From positions 124,001 through 188,000 of the forward strand of contig WRDF01000001.1 of NCBI GenBank assembly GCA_009783565.1: DNA of 64,000 bases, written 5' to 3'. The stretch comes from Rikenellaceae bacterium. GTDB taxonomy: Bacteria > Bacteroidota > Bacteroidia > Bacteroidales > Rikenellaceae. Below, in pieces: positions 6,482-39,285 of this stretch (its first letter is position 1; the number at the start of each line of letters is the position of its first letter). Under the pieces are notes generated by a model. That model ran no database searches, was not told the DNA's origin, and saw nothing but the letters and a program-made list of their open reading frames with translations. The position numbers and the translations under genes were made by a program.

Positions 6482-7561
6482 TTAAATCTCGCGTATTGAA
6501 AACTCCACGATTACGGGGTTGCAGTCGTGAGTGATCTTCGACATAAGTTCGTCGAGCAGGCGGTCTTTTCCGTAATCTTCGTGAATCAATCTGGCAGGAC
6601 TGACAATCGTAACAAAATAATCTCCGCTAACCGCAGATATGCTACCACTATCTCTGGGCAGATTGCGGGCATCTATCAATGATGCCCTATGAGTTAAAGG
6701 CTCATATACAAAAATATCGTACGTGTGAATATTATTTGTCCAAAGAGTTCCGGCAATAAAATTCTCGCCCTGGAATAACGAATTAAATCCTAATATGTTT
6801 ATATCTGTATGCGGGTCGAAATCAGCCGATCTGACCATGTGTTTACTTTTTATCTTGAAAATCTTTTCAGCCTTTTCACCCGACAGACGATATACGTCGG
6901 GCGACATCCTCTGATTGAAAAGCAGCGTCTCGCTGTAATAAAAACTTTGAGGCTTTACAAGTAACCTTTCTGTCGGATCATCGAACTCTTTTCGGAATGG
7001 TATTATTATATCGACAACCCCGTTGTTTAGTTGTACCAAACCTTCGGCTTTCATATTGCTTAAATAATTAGCTCCCCACATAATGTCTTCATGCCAACAT
7101 ATTTCAATAAGATTACCATCTATTATCTCTATCGAGCTTTCGAATTTGTAATCAGGATAAGCATATTTGTATATATGTGTTGTTTTACCACAAAATACAT
7201 ATATATTCATCTCTTCATCGAGTGTGAAATGGCTGGCAGAAATATATTCGCCCGGACCGCGCCCTTGTTTCGATAAAGAAAAGAGATGCTTTCCGTCGTT
7301 ATCGAATATATGAATAATGTTCGAATCCCAATCGGAAATAAAATACATGCCATTGCGGTACTCGATATTCCGAATGAATCCGAGAAGCACATCGTCTTTG
7401 GTTTCGAGGGGTATATATCTGTTTATCTCGAATTTGAAAAGAGGGTCTTGACTTGCCAAAAGGTCTATGTCTATTGTAAAGGTGTCGTCAGTGGTTTTTG
7501 AGGTACAGCCCGCGAAAACGACGAGGCACCATGCCAAAACTATGTAACCGGTATATCTCAT
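6482..7561 (-). CDS. 6-bladed beta-propeller lipoprotein (cassette A, distal)
   Basis: A 359-residue lipoprotein with signal peptide and lipobox VFAGC (Cys19). After it come repeated YWTD/NHL-like propeller strands, including IFDNDGKHLFSLSKQGRGPGEY. The G-x-G-x-GPxEY signature occurs in all four propellers of this window (8110, 36387, 38167), and the pattern matches the large Bacteroidota family of 6-bladed propeller lipoproteins of unknown role. It is the last gene of a four-gene minus-strand cluster: Cys-rich protein, propeller, Cys-rich protein, propeller. A 20-bp perfect hairpin separates it from the preceding Cys-rich gene. Function is unknown; binding, chaperoning or displaying the Cys-rich partner is an inference from repeated adjacency. 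Confidence 0.85.
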   Translation of the reverse strand: MRYTGYIVLAWCLVVFAGCTSKTTDDTFTIDIDLLASQDPLFKFEINRYIPLETKDDVLLGFIRNIEYRNGMYFISDWDSNIIHIFDNDGKHLFSLSKQGRGPGEYISASHFTLDEEMNIYVFCGKTTHIYKYAYPDYKFESSIEIIDGNLIEICWHEDIMWGANYLSNMKAEGLVQLNNGVVDIIIPFRKEFDDPTERLLVKPQSFYYSETLLFNQRMSPDVYRLSGEKAEKIFKIKSKHMVRSADFDPHTDINILGFNSLFQGENFIAGTLWTNNIHTYDIFVYEPLTHRASLIDARNLPRDSGSISAVSGDYFVTIVSPARLIHEDYGKDRLLDELMSKITHDCNPVIVEFSIREI

Positions 7562-7578
7562 ATTACTTCATTTTTATT

Positions 7579-7627
7579 GAAGATGACTGTTCAAAAAGTT
7601 ATGAATGCTTTTTGAACAGTCATCTTC
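7579..7627 (-). promoter_or_regulatory. 20-bp perfect hairpin between Cys-rich gene and propeller gene (locus A)
   Basis: The arms 7579-7598 and 7608-7627 are perfect 20-base reverse complements around a 9-base loop. The hairpin starts 22 bases after the Cys-rich stop and ends 17 bases before the propeller ATG. No T-run follows on the minus strand, so an attenuator, RNA-processing or translation-control structure is more likely than a plain terminator. A hairpin of unrelated sequence sits at the equivalent place in locus B (38104-38138). Confidence 0.7.
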
Positions 7628-7648
7628 TAATTCATAGCTTAAAGATTT

Positions 7649-8098
7649 TTAGCAAAAATGCGGGTCTTTTAGCCAGTAGTCATAAGCAGTGCAACTGCTG
7701 GTGCCTCCGGACCAACAGTCTTGTTTATACCGCGTTTGGGTAAGTGGCAGACCGCATTTAGAGCAATTTCCAGCTGAGGCCGGGAGTTTTGAGAAATCAT
7801 AGGGTATTACATAATACTTGCCTCCGCCAGCTTCACCGGGCACGCAAGGAGGACCTGACTCCAAACAATCAAACGTACAATTTGGGTCTCCCGGAAAAAC
7901 GCAATATTGCAGCTGCGGACAAAAAAGAAGACCAACGGGACAGCAATCTCGTACCAGAACCCCATCTTCATATTTGAAGAAAGCTTGACAATTCTCAGGG
8001 TCGGGAAAGTAAAGACCATCCATCTTCGCCCGCATGTAGATGTTACCGACAAGCATTACGCAAAACAGACCCGTCAGAGCGCAATTTACCACGAACAA
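7649..8098 (-). CDS. Cys-rich membrane-anchored protein, 5'-truncated copy (cassette A)
   Basis: This copy shares the constant block of the genes at 9290 and 37585 (LTGLFCVMLVGNIYMRAKM, then FPDPENC, a CC pair and CVFPGDPNCTFDC) but lacks their first ~19 residues. The leader is replaced by sequence abutting the stop of the upstream propeller gene. The listed start is a TTG, 12 bases after that stop; a GTG two codons later is the alternative. The variable tail (from about residue 88) carries five Cys and is unlike the other two. A 98-base stretch (7836-7933) is identical to 9537-9634. It may be a partly decayed gene, or be translated by coupling to or frameshifting from the propeller gene. Function is unknown. 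Confidence 0.65.
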   Translation of the reverse strand: MFVVNCALTGLFCVMLVGNIYMRAKMDGLYFPDPENCQAFFKYEDGVLVRDCCPVGLLFCPQLQYCVFPGDPNCTFDCLESGPPCVPGEAGGGKYYVIPYDFSKLPASAGNCSKCGLPLTQTRYKQDCWSGGTSSCTAYDYWLKDPHFC

Positions 8099-8109
8099 AA
8101 CCCTAATTC

Positions 8110-9279
8110 CTATTCCGGCTCTCCCAAGCGAAAAAACAGCAATAGCGGATTGTCATCTTCGGAAATCTCCATATCAAGAATACGCTTTTGTAGTCGAAGC
8201 AACATTGCATTTTCGACATTCTCGCTCTCTGCAAATTCAAGCGCACGACCGGGCAAAACCGAAGTCACAAAGAAATCCTCATGTGTTGTAAAAACACTTC
8301 CCAATACATACAATAATTGAAAGGCAGGCTCATAATCCTCTCCTAATGAAGGAGCACCTAATAGCAATGTCCGTCCCGATGCTTTATGCCGGTAAGCCAT
8401 TCTGGGCAGGAATTTTACTTGAAAATTATAAGATTCCCAAACAGAATTCTCTCTGTATCTTAACAGCATCCCATGGTCATTATTAGAAAAAATGAGCGTC
8501 TGTTGATACACATTCGCAAACATATTGGTCGGCGCACTTCCCCGAAATGCGTCATAGTAATTAGCCGAAACCTGCCACCTGCCGAGATGAACCTGTCTGT
8601 GCGGCATTAGCGAATCGGGTGTAACCCTATATACACGTTGGTTGATAATATCGAGGAAGTTCAAATTATCGCCCTGATATGAAAAATTATTCCAGTCTAT
8701 AGCCTCGATTCCCCGAAAATCGAGCGAGGCATTTCGCAGAACATCGCCCTTCATATTTCTGAACGCAAAGCCTCCCGCACCGTCATGCTCGACAAAAATC
8801 GTGTCGTTCACTAATCCCACGGCATCTGCTTCGCTCTCGAAATAGTATTGGTATACGCCATAAGCATCATACACCAGCATTCGGTCCATCTGACCATCTA
8901 GCAACATAATATGCTCCGGTGTCACGAGAAAACCTCCGATACCGAGATATTCGGCCGGCCCACGCCCCGAACGTCCCACGCGAAAGAGAGGATTGCCGTC
9001 GAGATCATGAACAGTCAGCGTTTTGCTCTTCGAATCATCAAGTATGTATATTCTGTCCTCCGTAATGTGAATATTGGTGATATTCCCCATGAGAAAGTCC
9101 TCTCTGCTCCGTAATGGGATAACAAAAACGCTGTCTACCAAATCGACTAATTCTGCTGTCTGCCTGCCTACGTTTTTATGATCGATGAACACCTCCGTAA
9201 AAAGCGACAGCTCTTTGCTTTGCCTGTTGCAGGCAAAGCAAAGAGAGGCGCAAAGAGCAATGTAAAAGAATCGTATCAT
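8110..9279 (-). CDS. 6-bladed beta-propeller lipoprotein (cassette A, proximal)
   Basis: A 389-residue lipoprotein with signal peptide and lipobox LCFAC (Cys17). The propeller repeats include LDGNPLFRVGRSGRGPAEY, matching the GRxGxGPxEY signature of the other three propellers. The ATG at 9279 (MIRFFYIALC) is preferred over the in-frame start at 9312, which would overlap the upstream gene; from 9279 the gap to the upstream Cys-rich stop is 10 bases, suggesting translational coupling. Downstream the truncated Cys-rich gene begins 11 bases after the stop. Near the 3' end a run of six T in codons Leu-Phe-Phe-Arg opens the reading frame of the downstream gene on a -1 shift. Cell-surface location is inferred. 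Confidence 0.85.
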   Translation of the reverse strand: MIRFFYIALCASLCFACNRQSKELSLFTEVFIDHKNVGRQTAELVDLVDSVFVIPLRSREDFLMGNITNIHITEDRIYILDDSKSKTLTVHDLDGNPLFRVGRSGRGPAEYLGIGGFLVTPEHIMLLDGQMDRMLVYDAYGVYQYYFESEADAVGLVNDTIFVEHDGAGGFAFRNMKGDVLRNASLDFRGIEAIDWNNFSYQGDNLNFLDIINQRVYRVTPDSLMPHRQVHLGRWQVSANYYDAFRGSAPTNMFANVYQQTLIFSNNDHGMLLRYRENSVWESYNFQVKFLPRMAYRHKASGRTLLLGAPSLGEDYEPAFQLLYVLGSVFTTHEDFFVTSVLPGRALEFAESENVENAMLLRLQKRILDMEISEDDNPLLLFFRLGEPE

Positions 9280-9289
9280 TGCTATGGAT

Positions 9290-9841
9290 TTATTGGGGAG
9301 GGAACAGCACAATAGGAGGCATCGTCCTTAGATTTTCGTAGCATGTCTTATTCCTATCCCAAACACAATCATTATGATAGGTTACAAGAACTACATCGCT
9401 GGTTATAGTAAAACCCCCGCTTCCACCGGCTTCAATTATCTCGATCGTGACACCTCCGCTCCCCGATCTTGTAACCGTGTATTTGCCTACGTTTTTATAA
9501 TCTTCATATGTGCCGCCGTTACCATTGCCGGCGGGTCCGGGCACGCAAGGAGGACCTGACTCCAAACAATCAAACGTACAATTTGGGTCTCCCGGAAAAA
9601 CGCAATATTGCAGCTGCGGACAAAAAAGAAGACCCTCATAGCAACACTTTCTCACTTTAACCCCATTTTCGTATTCAAAATAGGCGCCGCAGTTCTCAGG
9701 GTCGGGAAAGTAAAGACCATCCATCTTCGCCTTCATGTAAATATTCCCCGCAAGCATTACGCAGAACAGACCCGTCAAAGCAAGATTAACCTTGTTCAAG
9801 GTCGTTTTCGGTGTCAGCTTTGAAATCAGTGTTTTTATCAC
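9290..9841 (-). CDS. Cys-rich membrane-anchored protein with variable tail (cassette A)
   Basis: A 183-residue protein of no family I recognise. It has a basic N-terminus (KTLISKLTPKTTLNK), one hydrophobic segment at about 18-36, then a constant Cys-rich block with Cys at 51, 66, 67, 74, 80, 88, 92 and 99 (FPDPENC, CC, QYCVFPGDPNCTFDC). The Gly/Thr-rich tail carries two more Cys. The start is GTG in the context CCAAAAAGTGATAAAAAC, shared base for base with the copy at 37585, which supports it. There is no clear signal-peptidase site, so it is either an N-anchored periplasmic protein or is processed otherwise. It is the first gene of the cluster behind a consensus promoter. Confidence 0.75.
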   Translation of the reverse strand: MIKTLISKLTPKTTLNKVNLALTGLFCVMLAGNIYMKAKMDGLYFPDPENCGAYFEYENGVKVRKCCYEGLLFCPQLQYCVFPGDPNCTFDCLESGPPCVPGPAGNGNGGTYEDYKNVGKYTVTRSGSGGVTIEIIEAGGSGGFTITSDVVLVTYHNDCVWDRNKTCYENLRTMPPIVLFPPQ

Positions 9842-9881
9842 TTTTTGGTTTCAAGTTAGTATTGTGTGTAGTGTTCAAAGG

Positions 9882-9914
9882 CAAATATAAGCAGAAAAAT
9901 TAACAAAAACAAAA
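9882..9914 (-). promoter_or_regulatory. Consensus promoter for propeller/Cys-rich locus A
   Basis: On the minus strand TTTTG (9910-9914), 20 bases, then TATATTTG (9882-9889) match the Bacteroidetes primary-sigma consensus. It reads into the GTG at 9841 with a short leader and is divergent from the guaB promoter. Confidence 0.7.
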
Positions 9915-36386: not shown

Positions 36387-37538
36387 ATGTTAACGAAAAA
36401 TAAAACGGCCTGCTCTCTCCTTTTTGTAATATCTTTTCTCGTTTGTTTTGTTCAGTGTCGGAAAAGTGAACAAAATCTGTATGTTTCGGAGATTATTTAT
36501 CCACTGGAACAGACACGATTGATTTCTGATTTCAAACCGTACATTGAGAGTATTATTGTTATCCCGATTCAGGAAAGCGACCAGTCATTAATGTCTTACA
36601 TTTCAAAAGCGTTGCTTGACAATGACGGAAATATCTATATCCTTGATAAGGGAAGGATTATTGCTTTGAAACCGGACGGCACGTTTTTGCGCCGAATTGG
36701 TCGCATAGGACAAGGTCCCAGAGAATATCTCAATATCGAAGATATTGCCATTTCGGATGATGGAGAGTACCTTATGGTATTGCAAAGTTTAGCAGGGAAT
36801 ATACTCCTTTATGGCATAAAGGATACGACCCTTTATAAGGAGATCGCGGTTCCATTAATAGCGCCTTTTGATGCATTAGCTCCGGCAAGAGAAGGCGCTT
36901 GGCTTTATGCTGCATTTCCGGCATCCCAAAGCGATTATGGCAAACTTGAACCAATGATTACCCGGATTGATAATAACGCGAATATTATTGAACAGCATTT
37001 GCCAAGGAAAGATTTCACCATGTCAATAGGAAATATCACACAGGTCAGCCATAATAATTATCTGCTGAAGCCGCAAAGCAGCGAGCATATAGTATATCGT
37101 TTAATGCCCGATTCGATGTCAGCCTGCTATAAAATTGACTTCGGCAGAAAAAATATTCCACCGAATTGGGAAAAAGACCTGAGGGATGTCCAGTCTTATA
37201 TGCACTCCCCTTATTTTAAGTCTCCGATGTTTTTTCAGGAGACAGACAGCCTGCTCTATTTTAAGGCCGCCGGCCCCCAGGCGCAGGGATATAATTTTCT
37301 GTACTTGCGAGGAAAGGGGAAGGGAATTCATTGGGTGGACAATTACAGTAATTTCTTGGCTGATTTTATAGCTTCCGATGCCGACTACTTTTATGTAGTG
37401 ATCCCTCCGCTTCAACTGGTTGAGGACATGGATGATCTTTGTCCGTTGTCAAAATATTTGACGTATAAAACAGGAGTAGATCGTGATCCAAACAATAATA
37501 ATCCCGTGATCGTTAAAATTAAGTTTAATATTCCGTGA
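36387..37538 (+). CDS. 6-bladed beta-propeller lipoprotein (locus B, first)
   Basis: A 383-residue lipoprotein (lipobox CFVQC, Cys24). Propeller strands include ILDKGRIIALKPDGTFLRRI followed by GRIGQGPREYLNIEDI, the signature shared by all four propellers here. The gene is visibly AT-richer than its housekeeping neighbours. It is first in a three-gene cluster: propeller, Cys-rich protein, propeller. Its role is unknown; the family is widespread in Bacteroidota but uncharacterised. No clear promoter box was found in the 187 bases upstream, which hold a dispersed repeat and the divergent prenyl synthase promoter. Confidence 0.86.
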   Translation: MLTKNKTACSLLFVISFLVCFVQCRKSEQNLYVSEIIYPLEQTRLISDFKPYIESIIVIPIQESDQSLMSYISKALLDNDGNIYILDKGRIIALKPDGTFLRRIGRIGQGPREYLNIEDIAISDDGEYLMVLQSLAGNILLYGIKDTTLYKEIAVPLIAPFDALAPAREGAWLYAAFPASQSDYGKLEPMITRIDNNANIIEQHLPRKDFTMSIGNITQVSHNNYLLKPQSSEHIVYRLMPDSMSACYKIDFGRKNIPPNWEKDLRDVQSYMHSPYFKSPMFFQETDSLLYFKAAGPQAQGYNFLYLRGKGKGIHWVDNYSNFLADFIASDADYFYVVIPPLQLVEDMDDLCPLSKYLTYKTGVDRDPNNNNPVIVKIKFNIP

Positions 37539-37584: not shown

Positions 37585-38064
37585 GTGATAAAAACACTGA
37601 TTTCAAAGCTGACACCGAAAACGACCCTGAACAAGGTTAATCTTGCTCTGACGGGTCTGTTCTGCGTAATGCTGGTCGGTAACATCTACATGCGGGCGAA
37701 GATGTATGGTATTTTCTATCCCGATCCTGAGAACTGTGGTGCATTTTTTAAGTACGAGGGTGAGGTTCTGGTAAGAGATTGCTGCCCCGTGGGTCTTGTT
37801 TTTTGCGAGGAGTTACAGTATTGCGTTTTCCCCGGAGACCCCAACTGTACATTTGATTGTGTGACTGCCGGCTCTTGCGAACCCGGTCAAGTTGACGATG
37901 ACAAGGTGAAAAAAAAGCTTATCTCAAACGGTCGCGAATGTTTTATTGTGATTCAAGAAGGAGACGGATGGAAGTTCATCCCAGGACATCTTTTTGAGTG
38001 TGTATTAGATCCCGGCGGTCAGATCTACTGCGTACATTCTTGTTTTGAAAAATATCAAGTATAG
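37585..38064 (+). CDS. Cys-rich membrane-anchored protein with variable tail (locus B)
   Basis: A 159-residue protein with the constant block of the gene at 9290: basic N-terminus, hydrophobic segment at about 18-36 (NLALTGLFCVMLVGNIYM), then Cys at 51, 66, 67, 74, 80, 88, 92 and 98. The tail from about 102 (with VKKKLISNGRECFIVI, LFECVL, YCVHSC) has four further Cys and no similarity to the other tails. The GTG start and the bases around it (CCAAAAAGTGATAAAAAC) are identical to the copy at 9841 although the loci are 28 kb apart and inverted. It lies 46 bases after the first propeller. I recognise no family; substrate, toxin, signal or adhesive roles are all open. Confidence 0.75.
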   Translation: MIKTLISKLTPKTTLNKVNLALTGLFCVMLVGNIYMRAKMYGIFYPDPENCGAFFKYEGEVLVRDCCPVGLVFCEELQYCVFPGDPNCTFDCVTAGSCEPGQVDDDKVKKKLISNGRECFIVIQEGDGWKFIPGHLFECVLDPGGQIYCVHSCFEKYQV

Positions 38065-38103: not shown

Positions 38104-38138
38104 GTTACTCCTAACGTCTTTCAGACGTTAGGAGTAAC
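38104..38138 (+). promoter_or_regulatory. 16-bp perfect hairpin between Cys-rich gene and propeller gene (locus B)
   Basis: The arms 38104-38119 and 38123-38138 (GTTACTCCTAACGTCT and its complement) form a perfect 16-bp stem with a 3-base loop, 39 bases after the Cys-rich stop and 28 bases before the propeller ATG. Only a weak T-rich tail follows. Position matches the hairpin at 7579-7627, sequence does not. Confidence 0.72.
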
Positions 38139-38166: not shown

Positions 38167-39285
38167 ATGCTAAGAATTATCGTTTGTTTGTCTGTGGCGG
38201 CATTGATATTTTCCGGTTGCCGCTCAAAAGTGCCCGTTTACTATGGTGATGCCGAAGTTATCGAGATACCGAAAACAGTCACCGAATCGATTTTCGACGT
38301 CGTCGATAATTATCGCTATATCCCTCTTAATGTTGGGGGTAATTTGGCTGCTGCGATAGGAGGCATTGATAAGGTCAGAGTATTTCGTGACAAAATATAT
38401 GTGATGGATAACATTACCACACATAAACTTCTGATATTTGACAAGGACGGGACTTTCTTAAAAAACGTCGGCAGAAAAGGAAGAGGACCTCAGGAATATG
38501 TGGAACTGACGACATTCGAAATAGACTATCACAGAGAAGAAATACTGATAAGAGACAATACCAGTGAAAAAGTTCTCGTCTTCGGTCTTGATGGAGAGTA
38601 CAAACGTACTTTGGACTGCTCGATATGGGGTGGAGGCATTGCTGTTCTGCCTAATGGGAATATCGTACGTGGAATTGAAGGATTTCGTACTAATGATAAA
38701 AAGTTCGGAAATTATAAACTGATCATTCTCGACAGTGATAATAACATCCTTGAAAGGCATTGCGCCACTGAGGTGCGATTCCCATCTTTGTCACAGACCT
38801 TTTTGAATCCGGGCTTTGACGGAACTGTCACCTTTGCTCCTCAGATGATGAATGAGGTATACAGGATTTCGGAGGGTGGCGTAGAGCATATATATATCAT
38901 CAATTTCACTGATATGCTCGACATAAAAGAGATACCCGACCTTAATAATCCTGATAATCTTATGGATTTCTTTCAGAGTCCGCTCGCACAAAAAATGAGG
39001 TTTGTAGGTAATCATGCCGATTCAGAAGATTATTTCTGCTTCACGTATGAACACAATAGTCGACGCTATACTGTCTATTATGATAAGAAGACGGGCTTAT
39101 CAACGGTTAGCGACGATAGGTTGTGTGGACAGAATCTGACATTCGACGAAGAGGGCAATGTCTGGGGTTCGATAATGGAAACCAGTTTATTTTTTGCTAA
39201 TGCCGAATGCGAAAAAGTCGCCGAGCTTCGGGAGGCAATTCAAAAATCAGGAAATCCGATACTGGTGACCTACACCTTGAAATAA
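38167..39285 (+). CDS. 6-bladed beta-propeller lipoprotein (locus B, second)
   Basis: A 372-residue lipoprotein (lipobox LIFSGC, Cys18). Propeller repeats include LLIFDKDGTFLKNVGRKGRGPQEY and VLVFGLDGEYKRTL, matching the other three. It is the last gene of locus B, separated from the Cys-rich gene by a 16-bp hairpin. Like its relatives it probably sits in the outer membrane or faces the periplasm. Binding of the neighbouring Cys-rich protein is inferred only from the repeated pairing. Confidence 0.86.
   Translation: MLRIIVCLSVAALIFSGCRSKVPVYYGDAEVIEIPKTVTESIFDVVDNYRYIPLNVGGNLAAAIGGIDKVRVFRDKIYVMDNITTHKLLIFDKDGTFLKNVGRKGRGPQEYVELTTFEIDYHREEILIRDNTSEKVLVFGLDGEYKRTLDCSIWGGGIAVLPNGNIVRGIEGFRTNDKKFGNYKLIILDSDNNILERHCATEVRFPSLSQTFLNPGFDGTVTFAPQMMNEVYRISEGGVEHIYIINFTDMLDIKEIPDLNNPDNLMDFFQSPLAQKMRFVGNHADSEDYFCFTYEHNSRRYTVYYDKKTGLSTVSDDRLCGQNLTFDEEGNVWGSIMETSLFFANAECEKVAELREAIQKSGNPILVTYTLK

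Follow-up and report, generated by a model that had tools for sequence, protein, structure and literature searches.

A peritrophin-A-type domain shared by a family of small exported proteins paired with propeller lipoproteins in a Rikenellaceae genome

Two loci within a 64,000 nt window from a Rikenellaceae bacterium (GenBank assembly GCA_009783565.1, contig WRDF01000001.1, positions 124,001 to 188,000 of the forward strand) consist of genes for six-bladed propeller lipoproteins alternating with genes for small, cysteine-rich proteins. The first, on the minus strand, starts with a small secreted protein (9290-9841), comprised of a leader and head (residues 1-92) and a cysteine-containing tail (residues 93-183), followed by its partner propeller (8110-9312), an open reading frame (ORF) that overlaps the preceding gene by around 22 nt and for which a later ATG is the likelier start. 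These are succeeded by a second small protein (7649-8098), from which the first 16 or so residues of the leader are absent, and its own propeller (6482-7561). The second locus, on the plus strand, opens with a propeller (36387-37538) that has no head gene directly upstream, and continues with the third small protein (37585-38064) and its partner (38167-39285). All seven ORFs sit at the coordinates given by a first-pass annotation of this DNA, and the alternation it described is borne out by the ORFs, their motifs and their Pfam matches. The four propellers match DUF5128 (PF17170) with E values between 3e-23 and 5e-36, reaching the Pfam gathering score, and each possesses a lipobox-like cysteine and a GRxGxGPxEY-like motif (KQGRGPGEY, GRSGRGPAEY, GRIGQGPREY and GRKGRGPQEY); scanning the window proteins against NCBIfam returned nothing useful.

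The three small proteins are near-identical up to around residue 92 and dissimilar beyond, in agreement with the constant head and variable tail previously described. Based on profile matches, the head is a leader joined to a peritrophin-A chitin-binding domain (CBM_14, PF01607), a family with a known function. The matching segments lie at 9578-9721 on the minus strand (residues 41-88; E 8.5e-5, 23.0 bits), 7877-8020 on the same strand (residues 27-74; E 6.8e-7, 29.8 bits) and 37714-37848 on the plus strand (residues 44-88; 21.4 bits as a protein and 24.5 bits in the genome search), such that two of the three pass the gathering score of 22.1 bits as proteins. These modest values are attributable to the lack of two cysteines in the window copies; most copies elsewhere in the same genome score well above the threshold, reaching 50 bits (Pfam E values down to 5.6e-13). 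When a profile built from 24 heads was compared with the PDB, it matched a polyphenol-binding protein (3e-13), a chitinase (1e-11), chitotriosidase (1e-7), tachycitin (7e-7) and Avr4 (1e-3), the CBM14 structures recovered being of animal and fungal origin.

The window copies form part of a larger family. Profile searches combined with retrieved stretches of the 2.03 Mb genome, which is 92% complete and spread over 22 contigs, identified 28 small head-bearing genes, together with what is probably a fragmentary copy at the end of a contig, a pattern far beyond chance. Every one of the 25 head genes with a tail of at least 29 residues leads to a propeller lipoprotein downstream on the same strand, 21 directly and four via another head gene, and thus the repeated pairing first noticed in the window is real; the three head genes without a real tail, two of which are at contig ends, have no recognised propeller after them. 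The partners belong to the DUF5128 or TolB_like families, a few of them falling under the Pfam cutoffs or having no Pfam hit. Loci containing CBM_14 are found at several contig ends (the ends of C2, C11 and C19 and the starts of C6, C7 and C17), as expected of repeats that break assemblies, and so 28 copies is probably a lower bound.

Comparison of the 28 heads with the peritrophins, tachycitin, the chitin-binding domain of chitotriosidase and the fungal effector Avr4 reveals further likenesses. The cysteine spacing published for peritrophin-A domains (PMC7663561) is reproduced exactly, for example as CX15CX5CX9CX12CX7C, in 11 of the copies, none of them in the window, and a background set of 176 other short ORFs that have at least six cysteines contains no instance of it. 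The first and third cysteines are jointly present or jointly absent in all 28 copies (phi 1.00), while the fourth and fifth are invariant; no clear co-variation links the second and sixth, and two more cysteine pairs co-vary (phi 0.93 and 0.85). In the CBM14 domain of Avr4, disulphides join C1 to C3 and C4 to C5 (PMC6128652), a pattern that the co-variation among the heads appears to match. The CPxGL and C-x-aromatic motifs are likewise shared; the aromatic residue implicated in chitin binding by both chitotriosidase (PMC4844120) and Avr4 (PMC6128652), located two positions beyond C5, is retained in around 25 of the 28 copies, as counted by eye in the alignment. Unlike the characterised members of the family, the heads described here are bacterial, carry a bacterial leader and are fused to a tail of the NVEALA type.

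The NVEALA family (PF14055) is one half of a widespread, already catalogued but unstudied Bacteroidales gene pair. Of 90 NVEALA genes collected across Bacteroidales, Rikenellaceae included, 80 are followed on the same strand by a propeller gene within 1.5 kb. NVEALA proteins are present in 25 of the 200 Rikenellaceae genomes searched and in 16 of 295 genomes from the order. By contrast, the NVEALA profile has no match in the genome studied here, even at E values up to 10, and the motif is absent from all 28 head proteins. The closest correspondence between the two was found for the tail at L067, which aligns with an NVEALA peptide of a sister species (L133) with a score of 114 (z 14.6, relative to shuffles in which the cysteines were kept in place). 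G061, a genome from the same genus, encodes an NVEALA protein in front of a propeller; the cysteine-rich part of this protein corresponds to the L067 tail, and its propeller and that of L067 are a clear mutual match (score 811, the best of 75). Similarly, the tail of L062_2500 matches L305 (z 6.6), and the partner of L305 is the best match of 75 to the downstream propeller; those of L068_6696 (z 5.7, with its propeller ranked third) and L053_9381 (z 6.0) also resemble NVEALA peptides. The tails therefore stand as 'unrelated', in the wording of the first-pass annotation, among most of the copies, whereas several are homologous to the mature peptides of NVEALA proteins in other species.

In these few traceable units, sequence similarity indicates that tail and propeller are co-inherited. 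As the same tail and propeller occur behind an NVEALA leader in relatives, and no NVEALA protein is detected in this genome, the unit appears to be an NVEALA and propeller pair in which the front part has been replaced. The two kinds of pair are alike in their gene order, leader peptide, cysteine-rich tail and downstream propeller lipoprotein; they differ in that the NVEALA propeptide segment is substituted by a CBM_14 head in every copy within this genome. The first-pass annotation had listed, among its grounds for refutation, the assignment of the head to a family whose function is known, which is the case for CBM_14. With the head so assigned, and the tail and propeller belonging to a catalogued pair, the suggestion that the loci represent a candidate new system with an unfamiliar head is unsupported, and what was found is not categorically new: it is a variant, specific to one lineage, of a gene pair that was known but unstudied, and it carries a known domain. 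A literature search in which subscription journals were thinly covered found no paper naming NVEALA, DUF5128 or DUF4934, nor any joining peritrophin, Rikenellaceae and chitin-binding.

A further similarity lies in the intergenic regions. Nearly all directly paired genes separated by at least 60 nt have a perfect hairpin of 11-22 bp between the small gene and the propeller, the exception being L061, with a gap of 63 nt. In the window, these are a 20 bp hairpin at 7579-7627 on the minus strand (minimum free energy -30.2, z -7.0) and a 16 bp hairpin at 38104-38138 on the plus strand (minimum free energy -34.4, z -5.0). Many NVEALA pairs share this feature: where the gap is at least 45 nt, a stem of at least 10 bp is found in 11 of 24, against maxima of mostly 7-9 bp in shuffled sequences. 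The hairpin sequence is different in each pair of the genome studied here, and these structures may act through attenuation or mRNA stabilisation, which would yield more peptide than propeller.

The distribution of similarity at the DNA level suggests how the head was disseminated. Similarity between the 9290 and 37585 genes begins around 14 bp ahead of the start codon, extends across the head and is then lost, and the 9290 and 7649 genes share around 100 identical bases in a row, ending near the border between head and tail. In the triplet of genes at L063, synonymous divergence (dS) is 0.14-0.18 between heads and 0.75-1.1 between the neighbouring propellers; similarly, the pair formed by L061 and L062 has a dS of 0.09 in the head and 0.34 in the propeller. 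Even among unlinked copies, codons in the leader are identical at a frequency of 0.51, compared to 0.34 predicted from codon usage. With head dS so far below that of the propellers, and an excess of identical leader codons, it can be concluded that the head was spread or homogenised by recombination.

The tails evolve differently. In close pairs, their ratio of non-synonymous to synonymous divergence (dN/dS) is about 0.5-1.3, as estimated from short alignments, while their propellers have values of about 0.15-0.27 in those pairs that allowed both estimates, and tail dN, at about 0.3-0.9, is well above head dN in most cases. The tails are accordingly fast-evolving, as had been anticipated, but the diversifying selection proposed along with this is not established, because a raised dN/dS also fits relaxed constraint. 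Overall, the earlier interpretation is partly supported.

The best explanation is that each unit is a two-gene operon encoding a small, exported, cysteine-rich protein and a six-bladed propeller lipoprotein, with a hairpin between them where the gap allows. The ancestral unit would have been an NVEALA-type peptide with its propeller, the leader of which was swapped genome-wide for a leader and CBM_14 head that spread over around 28 units through recombination. The protein would be exported via the Sec pathway and disulphide bonded outside the cytoplasm, where the tail may hold it on its own propeller lipoprotein, acting as an address, while the constant head, as the functional part, may bind chitin or a glycan rich in N-acetylglucosamine. 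The new front end is, from its sequence, probably sugar-binding, and the family could comprise surface adhesins, or tags that target carbohydrates, in which each docking tail is specific to its own pair; as no GH18 chitinase was detected in the genome, attachment is likelier than digestion. This explanation as a whole, including anatomy, origin and function, is assigned a probability of roughly 45%. The anatomy and evolutionary history are considered very likely to be correct, with the origin of all 28 units by this route being an extrapolation, while the role in docking and adhesion is put forward tentatively.

A number of observations weigh against this explanation. Clear NVEALA matches are limited to four or five of the 25 tails, and none of the three window tails is significantly similar to NVEALA peptides, with 9, 18 and 105 of 200 shuffles scoring at least as high as observed; they are assigned to the family because of their gene order and shared head. 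Co-variation of tail and propeller is weak overall across NVEALA pairs (rho 0.06, with 12 of 300 permutations at or above the observed value), and none is found among the pairs in this genome. AlphaFold models of a window head protein and, separately, of a propeller, using alignments of the window relatives only, had predicted local distance difference test scores of 42 and 44, too poor for use. Finally, the window heads belong to a class without C1 and C3, in which valine replaces the aspartate after C5, and glycan binding could be altered in these proteins.

Of the alternatives, the one that survives best, though still unlikely, is that the small proteins are secreted antagonistic or signalling peptides, akin to bacteriocins or pheromones, for which the propeller serves as immunity protein or receptor and CBM_14 as an added targeting domain concentrating the peptides on a chitinous surface. 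Such a role would suit exported peptides that are small, cysteine-rich and quickly evolving and that have a cognate lipoprotein, and two related genomes provide links to radical-SAM peptide clusters. The only DUF5128 propeller of G003, a genome of the same genus, is encoded within a radical-SAM peptide cluster of the GG-Bacteroidales type (L120:4819-8751, minus strand; TIGR04148 and TIGR04150), which also holds a small cysteine-rich ORF. In G005, contig C378 (L121/L307) encodes a CBM_14 protein with a cysteine-rich tail; immediately downstream of it are genes for a radical SAM/SPASM enzyme, a C39-peptidase ABC exporter and an HlyD-like product, and the CBM_14 protein could be the precursor from which a modified peptide is made and exported. 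These associations keep a peptide natural product interpretation alive; however, unlike in such clusters, neither a maturase of the radical SAM type nor a C39 exporter was recognised in the flanking regions read around the units studied here, and a constant head on around 28 proteins does not suit independent toxins well.

Slightly less likely is the possibility that the head is a disulphide-stabilised scaffold or spacer that has lost sugar binding and was spread by gene conversion without selection for it. This would be in keeping with the class of heads that includes the window copies, in which the C1-C3 pair and the aspartate after C5 were lost and other cysteine pairs gained. Nevertheless, the binding-linked aromatic is retained in most copies; head dN/dS, at around 0.2 in several close pairs, indicates that the domain is under constraint; and three unrelated lipoproteins encoded in this genome also contain a CBM_14-like segment. 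Least probable is a system of surface variation or antigenic diversity, an idea raised in the first-pass annotation, in which recombination would swap the tails on constant heads or diversify them: the sharp border of identity between head and tail in the DNA, and the elevated tail dN, would be compatible with it, but dN/dS in the tails does not clearly exceed 1 and the traceable tails travel with the propeller rather than the head, implying that the head moved onto old tail and propeller pairs, not new tails onto the head.

Replacement of the NVEALA leader would constitute a natural domain-swap experiment, in which the front was exchanged while tail and propeller stayed together, suggesting that the latter two function as a unit whose front part can be swapped. 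It is likewise a clear example of a single domain carried by recombination through around 28 loci in a small bacterial genome, and glycan binding is a testable function for one half of a pair that recurs, as NVEALA peptides and propeller lipoproteins, in gut Bacteroidota.

The expansion is unusual for bacteria, CBM_14 being a mainly animal chitin-binding family. Searching 268 genomes of the family with the head profile found no relatives outside this genome except two CBM_14 proteins in G005, a leader-like match in G1030 being judged to be chance as it falls in an unrelated lipoprotein; none was found in six other genomes of the genus, and scans of genomic and viral contig collections with the head alignment returned hits to the pattern, none of which was a relative. 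Elsewhere, CBM_14 occurs rarely and singly: of 393 genomes in the order, three others have it, in one case with stops, and of 395 in the phylum, one other does. Given these single genes in a few other Bacteroidota, a bacterial source of the head is equally open beside an animal origin. A more speculative and on balance doubtful reading is that dozens of pair-specific couplings of tail and propeller amount to a dockerin-like surface system for the display of a shared chitin-binding head, assembled as an animal-type CBM_14, possibly acquired from a eukaryotic host, swept a whole peptide-gene family in one lineage. In another Bacteroidales family, the genome G292 encodes a lone exported protein of 107 residues (L124:3652-3975, plus strand) whose last residues form an incomplete CBM_14-like motif (CDWPDNRCSC).

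Within the genome studied here, sequence similarity indicates that the domain has also entered a second protein family. Contig C2 harbours three paralogous lipoproteins of around 300-360 residues (L055:5360-6436, L056:6199-7293 and L057:5557-6471, all on the minus strand), in which a CBM_14-like segment ending in CTCDWP, CACDWP and CYCDWP, respectively, is followed by a glycine-rich hydrophobic C-terminus. Elsewhere, head genes at L059:8681-12657 and L061:1442-3836, both on the minus strand, adjoin strings of genes for exported proteins and lipoproteins that resemble fimbria-type operons, one of which includes a weak match to OmpA.

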